A DNA stretch of 50,200 bases from Microscillaceae bacterium. Its GTDB lineage: Bacteria; Bacteroidota; Bacteroidia; Cytophagales; Microscillaceae. The position numbers and the translations under genes were made by a program. The stretch spans positions 1 through 50,200 of the forward strand of contig JAAUUB010000006.1 in assembly GCA_012031215.1 (NCBI GenBank). Reading direction: 5' to 3'. Of this stretch, positions 28,459-39,907 are shown piece by piece; within the stretch, counting starts at the first letter, position 1; every line of letters starts with the position of its first letter. The notes under the pieces were generated by a model. It saw only the letters and a program-made list of their open reading frames with translations. It was not told the DNA's origin and made no database searches.

Positions 28459-31400
28459 ATGGCATTCAAGAAAAACAAAAAAATTAACCACGACTTTCGG
28501 AAGGTAACCATCAGTCTGGCCTCCCCGGAGTCTATTCTCGATTCTTCTTTTGGGGAAGTAACCCAGCCAGAAACCATAAACTATCGTACTTACAAACCTG
28601 AAATGGGCGGGCTTTTTTGCGAGCGCATTTTTGGGCCAGTAAAAGATTGGGAATGTCATTGCGGTAAATATAAACGCATTCGTTACAAAGGCATCATTTG
28701 CGACCGTTGTGGCGTAGAAGTTACCGAAAAGAAAGTTCGGCGGGAGCGTATGGGCCACATCGAGCTGGTGGTACCAGTTGTGCATATTTGGTATTTCCGC
28801 TCTCTGCCCAATAAAATTGGCTATCTCTTGGGCCTGCCTACCAAAAAACTAGACCAAATCATCTATTATGAGCGCTATGTGGTCATTCAGCCCGGAATCA
28901 CGGCCGAAGACGGCATCTCTGAACTGGATTTCCTCAGTGAAGAGGAATATCTCGACATCATAGACAAATTGCCTCGCGAAAACCAGCTACTCGAGGACTC
29001 CGACCCTCAAAAGTTTGTCGCTAAGATGGGGGCCGAGGCGCTCGAAATGTTACTTTCACGCATTCATCTGGACGACCTTTCGGCTCAATTGCGCCACTCG
29101 GCCTCCAACGAAAAATCACAACAACGCAAAGCTGAGGCTTTGAAACGGCTACGGGTTGTAGAAGCCTTTAGGGATGCACAAACCCGTATTCAGAACAATC
29201 CTGAGTGGATGATTATCAAGATGGTTCCGGTGATTCCGCCTGAATTACGCCCACTCGTACCCCTGGACGGAGGCCGTTTTGCTACTTCTGACCTGAACGA
29301 CCTCTACCGCCGGGTGATTATCCGTAACAACCGCTTAAAGCGACTGATGGAAATCAAAGCCCCCGAAGTAATCTTACGCAATGAAAAGCGGATGCTCCAG
29401 GAAGCCGTTGATTCGCTCTTTGATAACTCCCGCAAAGTAAACGCAGTCAGGGCCGATGGCAACCGGGCCTTGAAATCGCTTTCGGATATGCTCAAAGGCA
29501 AGCAAGGACGTTTTCGCCAAAATTTGTTGGGAAAAAGGGTGGATTACTCAGGCCGCTCCGTGATTGTGGTAGGGCCCGAGCTTAAGCTCCACGAGTGTGG
29601 CCTGCCCAAAGATATGGCGGCGGAGTTGTTCAAGCCTTTTATTATTCGTAAGCTGATTGAGCGGGGCATTGTCAAAACCGTAAAATCAGCCAAGAAAATC
29701 GTGGATCGTAAAGACCCCGTCGTATGGGACATTCTTGAGAATGTGCTCAAAGGCCATCCCGTGATGCTCAACCGCGCTCCCACACTCCACCGCTTGGGCA
29801 TCCAAGCTTTCCAGCCCAAATTGATTGAAGGAAAGGCCATTCAATTGCATCCCCTGGCTTGTACGGCTTTTAATGCGGACTTTGACGGCGACCAAATGGC
29901 TGTGCACGTTCCTCTGGGGCACGCCGCCATTATGGAAGCTTCTATCCTGATGTTGTCCTCTCATAACATCCTGAGTCCGGCAAACGGAGCACCGATTGCC
30001 GTGCCTTCTCAAGACATGGTGTTGGGACTTTACTACCTGACCAAAGGCCGCCCTAGCTCCCCCGAAGAGCCCGTTCCTGGTGATGGTATGACCTTTTATG
30101 GCCCCGAAGAAGTGGTAATTGCGGTGAACCAGGGCCGGGTTTCCAAAAACGCCAACATCAAAGTGAAGGTCAATGTCCGCAATGCACAGGGGCAACTTGA
30201 GACCCAAATGGTAGAAACGGTGGCGGGCCGGGTGCTTTTCAACCAATTCGTGCCCGAAGAAGTAGGCTATGTCAATGAGTTATTGACCAAGAAAAAGCTC
30301 CAGCAGATTATTGGGATGATTGCCAAAATCAGCGGGATTGCCAAAACCGCCGCTTTCCTAGACGATATCAAAGACCTGGGCTTTATGACGGCCTACCGGG
30401 GTGGTCTTTCTATTGGCTTGGGGGATATTCTCATCCCAGTTGAAAAAGATGAACTGATTGTGCGGGCGAAAAGCGAAGTGGAAGAAATTCAGTCCAGCTA
30501 CCAAATGGGGCTTATCACCGACAATGAACGCTACAACCAGGTGATTGACGTTTGGACCAAAATCAACTCCCGCCTGACCGAAATCCTGATGGATAAAATG
30601 GCCGAGGATAAGCAAGGTTTCAACTCCATCTTTATGATGATGCACTCCGGAGCCCGGGGTTCGCGCGAGCAGATTCGCCAGTTGGGCGGTATGCGGGGCC
30701 TGATGGCTAAGCCTCAGAAAAACCTGGTGGGTTCGGTGGGCGAAATCATCGAGAACCCTATCATCTCTAACTTTAAAGAGGGCTTGGACGTAATTGAGTA
30801 CTTTATCTCTACGCACGGCGCGCGCAAAGGGCTGGCCGATACGGCCCTCAAAACCGCGGATGCAGGCTATCTGACCCGCCGCCTGGTGGATGTTGCCCAA
30901 GATGTGATTGTAACCGAAGAAGACTGCGGTACTCTGCGGGGCATTGCCATCTCCGCACTCAAAGACAACGAAGACATCGTGGAGCCTCTTTCAGAACGAA
31001 TTTTAGGGCGAGTAGCTGTACACGATGTGTTTGACCCGCTCACCGAAGAGCTGATTGTGGCCTCAGGTGAAGAAATCACCGAAGAAATCGCGGCTCATAT
31101 TGATGAAACCAGCATTGAAACGGTTGAAATCCGTTCGGTGCTTACCTGCGAAACCCGAAGGGGCGTTTGTATGAAGTGCTATGGGCGTAACTTGGCTACT
31201 GGAAGGCTGGTGCAAAAAGGTGAAACCGTAGGCGTAATTGCGGCCCAATCCATTGGCGAGCCAGGCACTCAGCTAACACTGCGTACTTTCCACGTGGTGG
31301 GGTGGCGACCAACATTGCCTCCGAAGCAACCATCAAAGCAAAATTTGATGGCATTATTCAATTTGAAGACATCCGTAAACTCCGTACCACCGATGCAGCC

Positions 31401-32771
31401 AATAATGAAGCGGATGTGGTGATGGGACGCTCCGGCGAAGTCAAAATTCTCTCCAAAGACCGGAGCAAGGTACTTATCTCCAACAATGTGCCTTACGGAG
31501 CTTACCTTCGAGTGGTAGAAGGCCAGGAAGTGAAAAAAGGCGACGAGCTTTGTGACTGGGATGCTTATAATGCCGTTATCCTTTCCGAAATAGAAGGAAC
31601 CATTGAGTTTGATTCTATCATTGAGAGCATCACCTACAAAGAAGAATATGACGAACAAACGGGCTTCCGGGAGAAGGTAATTATTGATACTAAAGATAAA
31701 ACCAAGAATCCGGCCATTGTGGTCAACACGAGCGAAGAAGGGGCTTCAAAAGAGTATAACCTTCCCGTGGGGGCGCACATCTCCGTCCAAGAAGGCAAGC
31801 AAATCAAACCTGGGCAAGTCTTGGCCAAGATTCCACGCACCCTCGGTAAGACCCGCGACATCACGGGTGGTTTGCCTCGGGTAACTGAACTGTTTGAGGC
31901 CCGTAACCCTTCCAATCCGGCAGTGGTCAGCGAAATTGACGGCGTAGTTACCTATGGCGGTATCAAACGCGGAAATCGGGAGATATATGTCGAATCGCGC
32001 GATGGGGTGAAAAAGAAATACCTTGTACCGCTCTCCAAGCATATCTTGGTACAGGACAATGACTTTGTGAAAGCGGGCCAGCCACTTTCGGATGGTGCAA
32101 TCACTCCCTCAGATATTCTGGCCATCAAAGGACCTACGGCTGTTCAAGAATACCTGGTAAATGAGATTCAGGAAGTTTATCGCCTACAGGGGGTGAAAAT
32201 CAATGACAAACACATTGAGTGTATTGTACGGCAGATGATGCAAAAAGTGGAAATTGAGGACCCAGGAGATACCAACTTCCTGCCCGGACAGGTGGTAGAT
32301 AAATTTTCTTTCCGGGAAGAAAATGACAATATCTTGGATAAAAAAGTCGTCATTGATGCCGGGGATTCCACCCGCTTCAAACCCGGCTCTATTGTGAGCA
32401 ATCGAGTGCTAAGGGATGAAAATTCCAGCCTCAAGCGCAAAGACCTTAACCTGATGCAAGTGAGAGAGGCCATTCCGGCGGTTTCGCGTCCTACTTTGCA
32501 GGGCATCACCCAATCCTCCTTGGGCACGGATAGCTTTATCTCGGCTGCTTCTTTCCAGGAAACCACCAAAGTATTGAGCGAAGCGGCCATCAGTGGAAAA
32601 GCAGATTACCTCCTGGGCCTGAAAGAAAATGTGATTGTGGGGCATCTCATTCCGGCAGGGACAGGCTTGCGCGAATACGAAGACCTGATTGTCATCTCGG
32701 ATGAGGCCTATGACCACATGTCAGAGGGGCGCGGTTATCCCGAAATCAAGCAGAAACAATATCAAAAGTAA
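28459..32771 (+). CDS. rpoC: RNA polymerase subunit beta', one frameshift
   Basis: 1437 residues after repair. The first zinc site is in [20 protein letters not shown]; the catalytic NADFDGD (472-478) binds the active-site magnesium; the second zinc site includes [15 protein letters not shown]. At 31296-31297 (GG) one G is missing: the expected reading is [19 protein letters not shown]. The C-terminal third with the Bacteroidota-type long insertions ([21 protein letters not shown]) continues to the stop at 32771. It is the last gene of the operon before a strong terminator. Confidence 0.98.
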
Positions 32772-35506: not shown

Positions 35507-36880
35507 TTAAAATCCTACCACTGCTTTTAGGCGCTGATAAATGGCCTCAATATCGAGTTCCTGGATACTTTCTACTTCCCGGCAAATTTGCAAGAGGAAT
35601 TGGTCTTGTTGATTGCCTCGTCGGTGGGCTTCAGCATAGGAGATTTCGGGGTGGAAAGTTACGAGCGAATATTTGGAGTGATAATCCGGGTAGCGCCCTT
35701 CAATGATTTGCTCCAATTGTTTTTGCGCAAAAAGCGGGCTCAGCCACCCCATCGCGCATTTCATAAAAGTTTTCGATGGCCAGGTTGGCAATGGCATCGG
35801 CATTGGGCTTGCGTTGTTTTTCAAACTCAGCAAATAATTCGGCCATATTCCCTTCCCAGTTATCCAGGATATTGTCAAGGACCAGGCAATCTTCAAAAGA
35901 AGCGTTCATGCCTTGGCCATAAAAGGGCACGATGGCATGGGCGGCATCCCCAATGAGCACAAATTTATCCTCAAAATGCCAGGGTTGGCAGCGCACAGTG
36001 CCCAGCAGCCCCAGGGGGTTGCGGAAAAACTCCGTGCCCACCATAGGCATCAAGGCGAGGGCATCCGGGAAATAGGTTTCGAAAAGCGGGTAACCGCCTC
36101 AGGCGTGGGTAAAGCGTCAAAGCTCACGGGTCCTTCTTTGGCCAAAAAAAGTGTTCCCGTAAAAGAGCCGTCATAGTTGGGCAGGGCGATGAGCATAAAA
36201 CTGCCGCGCGGCCAGATATGAAGCGCGTTTGGCTCCATGGCAAAAGCCCCGGCCGCCTCGGGCGGAAAAGTGAGCTCTTTGTAGCCGTGAGGCAAAAATT
36301 CGGAGATACTTTGATAACCCGGCCACTGTTGCGCGAGTGCTTGCCGCACCACTGAGCCGGCCCCGTCGGCGGCAAAAAAGCATCGCCCCACTACTTTTTT
36401 AATTTCTTGCGTGCTTGTATCTAGGATTTCTATGTAGCCTTCTCTGAGAAAAACCTGATGACAACGAGCTTCAAAATGAAACCGAATGCCGGGATAATTT
36501 TCGGCCTGTTCGAGCAAGATTTGATTCAGCCCGATGCGGGAGATGGAATTGATAAATTCGGTTTGGTCTTTACCGTAAGGCATGTAGGTCAGGTCTCCTT
36601 CCTGGCTATGCACCAGGCGACCCCGCATCGGGATAGCTTTTTGCAAAACGGCTTCTACCAGTCCCATTTTTTGCAATGCTTTGAGACCACGATGCGACAA
36701 GGCCAGGTTGATGGAGCGACCTTCTTCGGCTTGGTGGCGGCGGGGGTCGGGTCGCTTCTCATATACTTCTACCAAATAGCCGCGGCGGGCCAGGAAAATA
36801 GCCAGGAGCGAACCCGTGAGGCCCGCCCCAATAATGACAATGGGCAGGGAAGAAGCAGCAGGAGAGTGAGGAGCGTTCAT
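35507..36880 (-). CDS. kmo: Kynurenine 3-monooxygenase, two frameshifts
   Basis: 457 residues after repair. FAD-binding GAGLTGSLLAIFLARRG near the start, then EEGRSINLALSHRGLKAL and the second FAD motif GDAAHAIVPFYGQGMNASFEDC. The family hydroxylates L-kynurenine to 3-hydroxykynurenine with NADPH and oxygen, in tryptophan breakdown or de novo NAD synthesis. Two breaks: a run of four A at 36082-36085 has lost a base (reads VTRFFETYFPDAL), and GGG at 35736-35738 has gained one (reads RDGVAEPLFAQKQLEQ). The ATG at 36880 is preferred to one at 36916, which adds a foreign stretch. No kynureninase or other kyn gene is adjacent. Confidence 0.9.
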
Positions 36881-37002
36881 GTAAAGCAAAAAGGGGTTAA
36901 GCAAAGATTTGGGCACTCAAGCCGGATGAGATGGCGTGGCGTATTGCGTGGAAATAAAAGCTAAACTTGCATAAAGTTAGCCCAAGCCTGCCAAGATAAG
37001 GG

Positions 37003-37051: not shown

Positions 37052-37441
37052 TTAGGCCTCCTCCTGGTCAATCTCAACCATTTCTATGGGCAGTTTCACG
37101 ATTTGTTTAAAATCTTCTCCGGTTTGCAGCATATCTTCATCGTCCACATCGTAAATCCATTTGACCTGGGCCTGGTGGCCGGCCAAGTACATTTTCTCGA
37201 GCTTTTTGAGAATGCCCAAAATGTACATTGAGGAACTGGTATTGAAGTAGTCGAGCTGAAAAGTGAGCAGTGTTACTGCAAACGGCGACTGGGCGTAATC
37301 ATCAAGCCAAGTGAGCAGAGGCTCATAAAACTGGTAAGAGTTTTCGGGGATAGAGCGTCCGCTGATAATAAGCTGACCGGATTCGTGGGTAAAACGCACT
37401 TCGGGAGTTTTGGGCGTGCCCTCTATTTCAATGTTGTCCAT
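37052..37441 (-). CDS. siaC: SiaC-type (DUF1987) phospho-switch protein
   Basis: 129 residues. The core LDYFNTSSSMYILGILKKLEKM is the DUF1987/SiaC signature; T68 in NTSSS corresponds to the threonine that SiaB phosphorylates in Pseudomonas, where SiaC switches the diguanylate cyclase SiaD. The N-terminal beta strands (VRFTHESGQLIISGRSIPENS) are also typical. It follows siaB on the same strand by 36 bases. No siaA (phosphatase) or siaD gene is seen, so the output must be another partner. Confidence 0.9.
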   Translation of the reverse strand: MDNIEIEGTPKTPEVRFTHESGQLIISGRSIPENSYQFYEPLLTWLDDYAQSPFAVTLLTFQLDYFNTSSSMYILGILKKLEKMYLAGHQAQVKWIYDVDDEDMLQTGEDFKQIVKLPIEMVEIDQEEA

Positions 37442-37477
37442 ATAAATTCAAAAGTTTGAAGCCATCTTTGGATAAAG

Positions 37478-38041
37478 TTACACTACTTTTATCAGCATAC
37501 TAAATCGCGACAGTTTTTCGTCCACTTCCTCGAAGCTGAAAGATACCCGATGATGAGCGCGGCGCATTATGTCAATCAAACCTAGACCTGCCCCCCCTTG
37601 TTTGGGCAATTCGTCTTTGTCAAGAGAGCGAATGTAATGTTCCTGCAAGCCTTCATCATCTAGCCGGGTGATTTCATCAATGCGTTTTTTGAGGGCTTCA
37701 GCCCTCTCACGAGTAATCAAATTACCCGTAAGGATGTAATAGGCATCCTCACGATAGCTTACTATCACGTAAGGTGATTCAATAATCATCAGCCAGTCTG
37801 CTTCATTGGGGAGTGAGGCCGTATAGTGATAACTATTCTGCAAGCATTCTACCAGGATATTGATAATTTTTTTCTTGATACGTACGCGTGCGTTGGCCTT
37901 CACCAGCTTTTTGTCGGCTAACTGAATAATAATATCAATCATCTCCCCATCGAGAGCTCCTTGATGAGAGAATATGACACTCTCTTCTTTCAAAACTTCG
38001 TAGCATTTATACAGGTCAACCAAACAGGTTAAACTATTCAT
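37478..38041 (-). CDS. siaB: SiaB-family protein kinase
   Basis: 187 residues. A GHKL-type kinase fold: N-box IINILVECLQNSYHYTA (with the conserved Asn), a G-box GGAGLGLIDIMRRAHH and a closing strand FSMLIKVV. The SiaB family phosphorylates the SiaC-type partner, found directly downstream. Here it is a two-gene operon with a promoter upstream (38096-38125). The ATG at 38041 is the natural start, as there is no upstream in-frame alternative near the promoter. Confidence 0.88.
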   Translation of the reverse strand: MNSLTCLVDLYKCYEVLKEESVIFSHQGALDGEMIDIIIQLADKKLVKANARVRIKKKIINILVECLQNSYHYTASLPNEADWLMIIESPYVIVSYREDAYYILTGNLITRERAEALKKRIDEITRLDDEGLQEHYIRSLDKDELPKQGGAGLGLIDIMRRAHHRVSFSFEEVDEKLSRFSMLIKVV

Positions 38042-38095
38042 CAGGACGGTCTCGAGGGAATATTCGCCCCGCTATTGTTTCCCCTAAGTTTTTAG

Positions 38096-38125
38096 CAAAG
38101 TTAGAAAAATTACAGAGGATTCAAA
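38096..38125 (-). promoter_or_regulatory. Promoter of the siaB-siaC operon
   Basis: On the minus strand TTTG (complement of 38122-38125), an 18-base spacer, and TAACTTTG (complement of 38096-38103). About 55 bases before the siaB start. Confidence 0.6.
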
Positions 38126-38197: not shown

Positions 38198-38913
38198 TCA
38201 CTTATCTGCAAGCAGGGCATCGGCCAGATGCAAGGTCTGTATGGGTTTTTGATATTGGGCAAAATACTGGCGCAAGTGCCATAAGCACGCCACCTCCGTG
38301 GAGATTACATAGTCGGCTTGCAGACGGAGCGCAATTTCGGCTTTTTGCTCGGCCAGTGTCTGGGCCCAGGCCGGGTATTGCAGGGCTGCATATCCTCCAA
38401 AGCCGCAGCACTGGCTCATTTCTTCATCTTCTACCAGTGTCAGGCCTGCTACTTCCTGCAAAAGTTGCAAGGGAATGAGTTTGCTGCCGCAGGACTGCCG
38501 ATAGTGGCAGGCATCCAGGAAATAAGCCCGACCAGACAGATGGGGACGGGCCTGGGCAAAATCGGGGCGGAATTCCTGCAAAAATTCACTCAATTCCAGC
38601 GTTTTGGTCGCTACTTGCTGCCATTGGGCCAGCGAAACCTTCGGCGGGGGGGTAGGTAAGCGAAATACCGATGAGCAACGACCTGAGGCAACCACCAGAT
38701 AGTCGAGCTTATCCCATTCTAACCGTCCTAAAAAGGATTGATGTAAATGCCATTGCGTCAGGTCTCCGGCTCGGTAATCTGCCTCACCACAACAAATGGC
38801 CGGAGATAAGACCTCTACAGAATGACCACCCAGCTGAAGCAAACGCAAACGTTTTGGGCGGATTCCGGGAAATAGTGCCGCATAAGGCAGGGTATCAGCA
38901 AGGCAATGTTCAT
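38198..38913 (-). CDS. LutA/YkgE-like (Fe-S)-binding cysteine-rich (CCG) protein, one frameshift
   Basis: 238 residues after repair. Two CCG repeats: SPAICCGEADYRAGD and EEMSQCCGFGGYAAL. The family carries an unusual Fe-S cluster in subunits of lactate, heterodisulfide or glycerol-3-phosphate oxidising enzymes. As given the N-terminus is cut off; with one base added to the T run at 38852-38855 (A run on the coding strand) an ATG at 38913 starts MNIALLIPCLMRHYFPESAQ and reads into RLRLLQLGGHSVEVLS. It lies 41 bases after metF on the same strand and is probably co-transcribed with it. LutB/LutC are not in the window. Confidence 0.85.
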
Positions 38914-38954: not shown

Positions 38955-39907
38955 TCAGAATAACTCTCGCGCAATATTTTTGACCGCTGTGGAGCGGCTC
39001 ATGGAGTAATAATGCAAACAAGGCACCCCAAATTTAATCAGTTCTTTTGATTGATGGATGCCCCACTCAATACCAACTTCGGTAACATCTGCGGTGTCTT
39101 TGCATTTTTCTACTTCCTTGACCAGGTCATCGGGCAGGTCAATATGAAAAATACTGGGCAAAATGGTCAGATGTTTCTTGGTGGTAATGGGCTTAAGGCC
39201 AGGAATAATAGGCACATTGATGCCTATTTCGCGGCAACGTCGGCAAAACTCAAAGTATTTTTGATTGTCAAAAAACATTTGGGTAATGATGTAGTCGGCA
39301 CCTCCATCCACCTTTTTTTGAGATATTGCAAATCTTTCTCAAAATTAGGGGCTTCAAAGTGTTTTTCTGGATAACCCGCCACACCAATACAAAAATTGGT
39401 AGGAGTACTGGTTTTCTGGTCGTCGTCCAGGTAAATGCCCTGATTCATATTATGCACTTGCTCCAGCAGCTCAGAAGCATAATGATGCCCGTTTTTTTTG
39501 GGGCTAAAAGCACCCTCGCTTTTGATGGCATCGCCCCGGAGCACCAGCACATTGTCCACCCCGAGGTAATCAAGGTCTATGAGTGCATCCTCAGTTTCTT
39601 CTTGGTTGAAACCGCCGCAGATCAGATGTGGAACAGCATCTACATTGAAGCGATTCATCACGGCCGCACTGATGCCTACTGTACCAGGGCGTTTGCGCGA
39701 AGTAATTCTTTCCAAAAGTCCATTTTCCCGTTTTTTATAAACATACTCCTCGCGATGATAAGTTACATCAATAAAAGCTGGTTTGAACTCCATCAACGGC
39801 TCAATGGCCGCAAAGAGCTGATGAATACTTTCCCCTTTCAAAGGGGGTAATATTTCAAAGGAGAATAGAGGCTTTTCGGCGTTGCGAAGATGCTCAGTGA
39901 TTTTCAT
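38955..39907 (-). CDS. metF: 5,10-methylenetetrahydrofolate reductase, one frameshift
   Basis: 317 residues after repair. MetF makes 5-methyl-THF for methionine synthesis. Landmarks are FSFEILPPLKGESI, FIDVTYHREEYVY, HLICGGFNQEETEDALIDL, VLVLRGDA and, in the second half, GGADYIITQMFFDNQKYFEF and IPGLKPITTKKHL. The break is at 39313-39319, a run of seven T on the plus strand that has lost one base; restoring it reads LQYLKKKVDGGADYIITQ. A -7 element at 39982-39989 (TACTTTTG) would start a leader of about 70 bases. Confidence 0.95.

Follow-up and report, generated by a model that had tools for sequence, protein, structure and literature searches.

The window, a 50,200-nucleotide stretch of DNA from a Microscillaceae bacterium (contig C300 in our set), carries a siaB gene followed on the same strand, across a gap of 36 bp, by a siaC gene, and both open reading frames are intact (Table 1). 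A promoter-like element ending 54 nt before the SiaB start matches what we take to be the Bacteroidota promoter consensus, scanned here as TTG-N18-TAnnTTTG. The match hints that the pair has its own promoter, as a preliminary description of this DNA had proposed, although the three consensus matches in the window (1.15 expected) were equaled or exceeded in 14 of 100 shuffles. The gene directly preceding siaB encodes a CCG-domain Fe-S protein and is probably shortened by a frameshift. Inspected by eye, the window genes at 28459-32771, 35507-36916, 38198-38848, and 38955-39907 (rpoC-like, kynurenine-monooxygenase-like, CCG, and metF-like) look broken, in contrast to siaB and siaC, and several such frameshifted-looking genes suggest small indels in the assembly.

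Table 1. Positions of the siaB-siaC pair and associated features in the window
Feature	Position	Strand	Remarks
siaC, SiaC-family (DUF1987) phosphoprotein	37052..37441	-	129 aa; STAS-like fold; T68 conserved
Codon of predicted phosphoacceptor T68 (Y65-F-N67-T68-S69)	37238..37240	-	Coordinate computed from ORF start
siaB, SiaB-family kinase (GHKL type)	37478..38041	-	187 aa
Codon of invariant glutamate E65, aligned with P. aeruginosa SiaB E61	37847..37849	-	Coordinate computed from ORF start
Promoter-like TTG-N18-TAACTTTG upstream of siaB	38096..38124	-	Bacteroidota-type consensus, as assumed here
CCG-domain Fe-S protein, neighbor gene	38198..38848	-	PF02754, 61.8 bits; 216 aa versus 241-251 aa in relatives

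Profile comparisons placed both products in families that are already known, of which they are new members. The window SiaC scored 134.3 bits against the Pfam SiaC family PF09345 (cut-off, 24.5), and the window SiaB scored 128 bits against the NCBIfam model SiaB_fam_kinase (NF038262; cut-off, 85) and 116.2 bits against DUF6272 (PF19788). Against the Pseudomonas-type equivalog models (the pair NF038265/NF038264), the scores of 89.2 bits for SiaC (cut-off, 150) and 68.6 bits for SiaB (cut-off, 225) fall below the thresholds, which identifies the two as family members rather than strict Pseudomonas-type proteins. Pseudomonas aeruginosa SiaC (6kko/6k4f) aligns to residues 1 to 121 of the window SiaC without gaps, so that window residue T68 corresponds to Pseudomonas T68; this threonine is present in all 19 SiaC proteins of the window clade. 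AlphaFold2 models were computed with the window proteins and those of 16 named loci with a close SiaC (65 to 78% identity; recorded as Microscillaceae, Cytophagales, Raineya, or Microscilla, or only as Bacteroidetes, Cytophagia, or bacterium) as input. The SiaC model (mean pLDDT, 89.6) has 6kko as its best PDB match (6kko_D; E=5.0e-12; TM, 0.88), also matches 6k4f and 7e6g, and shows the predicted phosphoacceptor opening helix 2 (residues 68 to 86). The SiaB model (mean pLDDT, 83.1) likewise matches 6kko best (6kko_A; E=5.0e-11; TM, 0.76). Residue E65 of the window SiaB lies in an ungapped alignment with the P. aeruginosa SiaB stretch that contains E61, named as the predicted catalytic residue in the part of PMC7647112 drawn on here, and it is invariant in 11 SiaB proteins of the host genome and in 17 window-type SiaB proteins. 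The kinase-substrate pair with a conserved T68 put forward in the preliminary description is therefore genuine by family, phosphosite, and fold.

The description of a self-contained two-gene module did not hold at the scale of the genome. The host draft assembly (4.81 Mb, 306 contigs, 95.45% complete, and 3.12% contaminated) contains 12 SiaC genes (13 matches, two being pieces of one frame) and 12 SiaB genes (13 matches, two overlapping at one locus), and the window pair is one among these. SiaB lies directly upstream of six of the 12 SiaC genes and is absent from that position in the other six. The search for siaA-like PP2C and GGDEF proteins proposed earlier was run on the whole draft genome. 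It returned 42 SpoIIE/PP2C matches, some of them pieces of broken genes, and no GGDEF match, so that no SiaD is detectable; the same GGDEF search detected the domain in eight of 14 control genomes. None of the SpoIIE/PP2C matches lies on the window contig, and the pair accordingly has no linked siaA phosphatase. The earlier statement that no phosphatase is nearby is thus correct for this contig, but SiaA-like PP2Cs are encoded at other loci, and "without SiaA" fails for the genome. On contig C112 (L019:2545-8565) the gene order is PP2C-SiaB-SiaC-TPR-PP2C-SiaC, and the two phosphatases of this operon score 188.6 and 194.1 bits against the SiaA model NF038263, below its cut-off of 700. The C112 operon resembles a two-step cascade, with the second phosphatase as a possible target of the first SiaC. 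On contig C82 (L020), a broken PP2C precedes another SiaB-SiaC pair.

The lack of a cyclase extends well beyond the host. Among 116 relatives within the order, SiaC was found in 80, SiaB in 78, and GGDEF in one (G166), in which SiaC had no match. In the host family, each of the 15 genomes sampled lacks GGDEF and carries 7 to at least 34 SiaC matches; the upper value is a minimum, reached in G397 and G406, in which 34 of 54 and 34 of 56 candidates were scored. Other families of the order are also rich in SiaC (19 matches in G418, 14 in G410, and 11 in G462). Of 395 Bacteroidota genomes sampled evenly, only 22 contain SiaC, with no more than four matches per genome besides the host (at most 11 candidates scored in each). 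The SiaB-SiaC network without GGDEF therefore belongs mainly to this order, with many copies in every sampled member of the family. The absence of SiaD noted in the preliminary description stands and is nearly general in the order (115/116), and the absence of GGDEF from a 95.45% complete draft and from all but one of the relatives implies that the output of these switches must differ from SiaD. Among the papers listed by open-access literature searches, none was a study of SiaC, DUF1987, or DUF6272 proteins in Bacteroidota. What is new here is the GGDEF-free network and a candidate replacement output, the SiaB and SiaC families themselves being known.

Gene neighborhoods were clustered for 112 SiaC ORF records (108 distinct sequences) from the host genome, 12 other genomes, and the 16 named loci; locus L107 was lost in ORF picking, and the fragment G462:C6:386276 was not fetched. 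Three arrangements recur around SiaC, and the window pair fits none of them. The first comprises a CheB methylesterase, a GAF protein, PP2C, SiaB, SiaC, a TerB-ABC transporter (ABC-2 type), and two proteins of unclear family; seven families of the order have genomes with this operon, parts of which are missing in some members. In the member whose domains were checked (L144:135-10827), the phosphatase has a Cache-HAMP-GAF-PAS-PP2C architecture and scores 214.8 bits against the SiaA model. The host copy, on C82, is cut by the contig end. In this arrangement (L144:135-10827 and host C82), the TerB-domain ABC transporter occupies the place of SiaD. The second arrangement is that of C112. The third consists of SiaB-SiaC followed by a coiled-coil "stalk" protein of 160 to 211 aa in the clustered set, which has two hydrophobic segments (by eye) and the motif VSDRLQ in a helical-looking region; the host copy, on contig C83, reads VSDRLH, with H where SiaD has Q86.

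This motif recalls the segment of SiaD that is bound by SiaC. In the interface description of PMC8457831, SiaC T68 bonds to SiaD S82 and Q86, E110 meets R84, and D79, R103, and D114 are listed against R74, D91, and K77 and R74. The pairings D79-R74, R103-D91, and D114-K77 used below were assigned from the order of that list, and the SiaD motif was derived from the residues named in the text rather than from the full SiaD sequence. A stalk profile search of the 116 genomes gave 52 matches in 41 genomes, partial matches included. The fetched loci contain 31 stalk ORFs of 140 to 225 aa, representing 30 genes (L211 and L234 are one gene), of which 23 lie directly downstream of SiaC with gaps of -8 to 190 bp. 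At the SiaD contact positions these proteins read [VI]-S-D-[RK]-x-Q, the exceptions being L213, where S is replaced by G, and the host copy, which has H instead of Q.

Linked SiaC and stalk proteins were compared in 24 pairs; these are related to each other, and the counts that follow overstate the number of independent events for that reason. T68 is present in 24/24, the stalk serine in 23/24, and the stalk glutamine in 23/24. SiaC D110 faces R or K at stalk position S+2 in every pair (E110-R84 in Pseudomonas). SiaC R79 faces D or E at S-8 in 13 of 13 cases, and K79 faces Q in seven and E in four (Pseudomonas D79-R74). SiaC D103 faces K or R at S+9 in 13 pairs, N in five, S in three, Q in two, and V in one (Pseudomonas R103-D91), while L, I, or V at SiaC position 114 faces L, V, or I at S-5 in 24/24 (Pseudomonas D114-K77). 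By these alignments, the contact residues are complementary and partly charge-swapped relative to Pseudomonas. Stalk proteins without an adjacent SiaC (L194, L202, L208 to L211, L233, and L234), the second fusion copy (L224), and the kinase-like, receiver, propeller, and 7TM matches (L215 to L223 and L225 to L232) were dropped from this count.

Several searches bear on how specific the motif is. A stalk profile searched against the PDB matched SiaD (7e6g_A, chain residues 64 to 100) at E=0.38, sixth of eight and below five unrelated chains, and full-length and trimmed stalk profiles both missed SiaD; the match was not counted as proof. The loose motif [ILVMA]S[DEN][RKQ]x[QH] was found 19 times in 1,459 ORFs around SiaC versus 15.85 times on average in 20 shuffles, so that the loose pattern by itself is meaningless. 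The strict form [IV]SDRx[QH], on the other hand, was confined among these 19 to four stalk proteins, each directly after SiaC. A motif scan at the DNA level in four genomes gave no excess, with 15 matches versus 19 in a reversed control; of the two matches inspected, one is the C83 stalk gene and the other, in G399, lies in a TonB-type receptor (by eye). A shared stalk in the TerB-ABC or TPR-PP2C proteins was considered but dropped, as the loose scan gave it no support; the one match in the C112 TPR-PP2C protein, ALSEKNQ, falls within the TPR part.

Parts of this system are also exchanged between proteins. In G416, SiaC and the stalk are joined in a natural fusion (L214/L224, one gene), a 324-residue frame with SiaC at residues 1 to 126 and the stalk plus hydrophobic part at residues 195 to 318, and SiaB is fused to SiaC in L203, L206, L207, and L134. 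A stalk-related N-terminal stretch occurs in nine proteins of 332 to 348 residues, and the three that were scanned carry HisKA and HATPase domains; five of these nine kinase-like proteins have the strict motif (Q or H), from which L217, L220, L222, and L223 depart. In L225, L226, and L228, receiver domains are attached to the hydrophobic C-terminal module of the stalk protein. This exchange would fit a role of SiaC as the input module for these proteins. The hydrophobic module matched no Pfam family; two Reg_prop/Y_Y_Y proteins end in a similar stretch (the loci concerned are L225:4138-5013, L226:4268-5287, L228:3196-4203, L229:2378-5170, and L230:5608-8373).

The window SiaC itself has no linked stalk protein with [IV]SD[RK]xQ, and no partner for it emerged from the stalk searches of the host genome; the only clear stalk protein there is that on C83, beside a paralogous SiaC. 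In a tree of 106 SiaC proteins and P. aeruginosa SiaC (FastTree support; two frames of >200 aa left out), the window clade, which includes two SiaC proteins of G441, was placed next to the clade that holds the stalk-linked SiaC proteins with a support of 0.877, the protein being a short one. Residues R29, K/R79, D110, and D103 (one E) are common to both clades. A stalk gene adjoins only four of the 12 SiaC genes assigned to the neighboring stalk clade, and five genomes (G399, G403, G404, G435, and G437) have a stalk-clade SiaC and no clear stalk match (E of 0.25 or worse). Of the 14 contact positions, 12 do not vary across 17 window-type SiaC proteins, compared with 42 of 107 other positions (p=0.0012); with the phosphosite segment excluded, the comparison is borderline (6/8 versus 35/98; p=0.053). 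The contact positions rank with the most constant ones in window-type SiaC, which suggests a constant partner. Between window-type orthologs, identity is 64 to 78% for SiaC versus 31 to 49% for SiaB.

The reading toward which we lean is that SiaB, SiaC, and a PP2C form a switch acting on the helical stalk of an effector other than a GGDEF cyclase, and that the window SiaC has a similar stalk partner. SiaB would phosphorylate SiaC on T68, and a SiaA-like PP2C/SpoIIE phosphatase encoded at another locus would sense a signal and take the phosphate off. Unphosphorylated SiaC would then clamp the stalk of the effector, as on Pseudomonas SiaD. The most likely effector for some paralogs of the window SiaC is the stalk protein, in which a coiled coil at the N terminus bears [IV]SD[RK]xQ and the C-terminal part contains two hydrophobic segments, which are probably membrane segments (by eye); in other genomes, this role may fall to a histidine-kinase-like protein whose stalk is related. 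Contact residues of that class are present in the window SiaC too, and this protein therefore probably docks on a comparable helical stalk, in a partner encoded elsewhere.

An unlikely variant is that the window SiaC shares the C83 stalk protein with a paralog, so that several SiaB/SiaC inputs converge on one output. A single clear stalk protein for 12 SiaC proteins in the host, together with the matching contact residues of window-clade and stalk-clade SiaC, would agree with this, but the Microscillaceae-type genomes G399, G403, and G404 keep a window-clade SiaC without a clear stalk protein.

We also find it rather improbable that the pair serves its own neighborhood, with SiaC acting on the CCG Fe-S protein or on HMG-CoA-lyase-like/CCG metabolism instead of a stalk effector. 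A CCG gene directly precedes SiaB-SiaC in the window, in seven of the 16 named relatives, and in L133, which belongs to another family, with CCG-to-SiaB gaps of 6 to 244 bp in the window and these relatives; it lies farther upstream, not directly adjoining, in the named relative L094, and HMGL precedes CCG in L095, L100, and L133. However, no CCG gene was found among the three upstream ORFs in eight of the 16 named relatives with a close SiaC or in L109, and the loose stalk-motif scan had no match in the CCG cluster. L095 and L133 share neighbors on the other side as well, so the linkage may be plain conserved gene order.

That SiaC works as an anti-anti-sigma factor on a sigma/anti-sigma pair, like the STAS proteins of Bacillus, seems to us quite improbable. 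Weak fold matches recall those systems (SiaC to RsbV, E=0.031, and to RsbS, E=0.085; SiaB to SpoIIAB, E=7.6e-4), and one locus would suit such a scheme: on contig C63 (L030:610-1847), a SiaB without a recognized SiaC lies near a frame of 132 aa, perhaps a diverged SiaB partner, whose SpoIIAA-like match is sub-threshold (E=0.0079). Against it, no sigma or anti-sigma family was matched among the 30 neighboring proteins scanned at host-genome loci, and the closest characterized relative acts on a stalk. Finally, a classical SiaABCD system whose GGDEF cyclase is merely missing from the assembly is very improbable: the genome is a 306-contig, incomplete draft, yet the domain is equally absent from the 15 family genomes, its one bearer among the relatives has no SiaC, and the search does detect GGDEF in controls.

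The preferred reading, a stalk-directed switch, can be set against characterized systems. The SiaABCD system of P. aeruginosa, as far as the portions of PMC7647112 and PMC8457831 used here describe it, is alike in the SiaB kinase and SiaC phosphoprotein (by sequence, T68, and fold), in the SiaA-like PP2Cs of the host genome, and in a SiaD-like SiaC-binding motif beside some paralogs. It differs in that the host and 15 family genomes lack GGDEF, the window pair lacks a linked phosphatase, paralogous copies are many here, and the contact residues are not the same, two having a changed charge. The SpoIIAB/SpoIIAA/SpoIIE and RsbW/RsbV/RsbU systems share the logic of a GHKL kinase, a STAS-like target, and a PP2C, with distant fold matches, but the window proteins match Sia far better and no sigma factor was found in the scanned neighbors. 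In Campylobacterota, STAS proteins of kinase/PP2C systems were proposed to act on a c-di-GMP enzyme or a chemoreceptor (PMC9239204); those systems belong to another phylum, and the portion of that account considered here describes neither a stalk motif nor a GGDEF-free setting.

More broadly, SiaC may be a general coiled-coil-clamping phosphoswitch, rather than a c-di-GMP accessory, that has been multiplied in this order, reaching dozens of copies in one family, and turned toward new targets (membrane proteins, histidine-kinase-like proteins, and perhaps an ABC exporter), in part through one conserved helical docking motif. A threonine-phosphorylation network parallel to two-component signaling would result; we regard the case for this wider proposal as evenly poised. 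If it is true, the membrane module fused to receivers means that the same output could run on phospho-aspartate or phospho-threonine input, and the order would hold a large, apparently unstudied threonine-phosphorylation network of Bacteroidota. Whether SiaC is an accessory of c-di-GMP signaling becomes testable in a lineage with many SiaC proteins and no detectable GGDEF, which supplies candidate effectors, a docking motif with changeable or swappable contacts, and a natural SiaC-effector fusion.

Some members of the two families stand in other contexts. On contig C21 (L025:7835-9109), a SiaC frame runs on into an M23 peptidase; since it encloses what looks by eye like a signal peptide, it was discounted as a fusion and is probably a frameshift read-through. 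A SiaB domain lies within a 390-residue frame at G410:C132:3976-4359, a possible further fusion. On contig C18 (L024:8219-9805), a SiaC without SiaB directly follows two genes that match the NADH dehydrogenase chain 3 and 20 kDa families.
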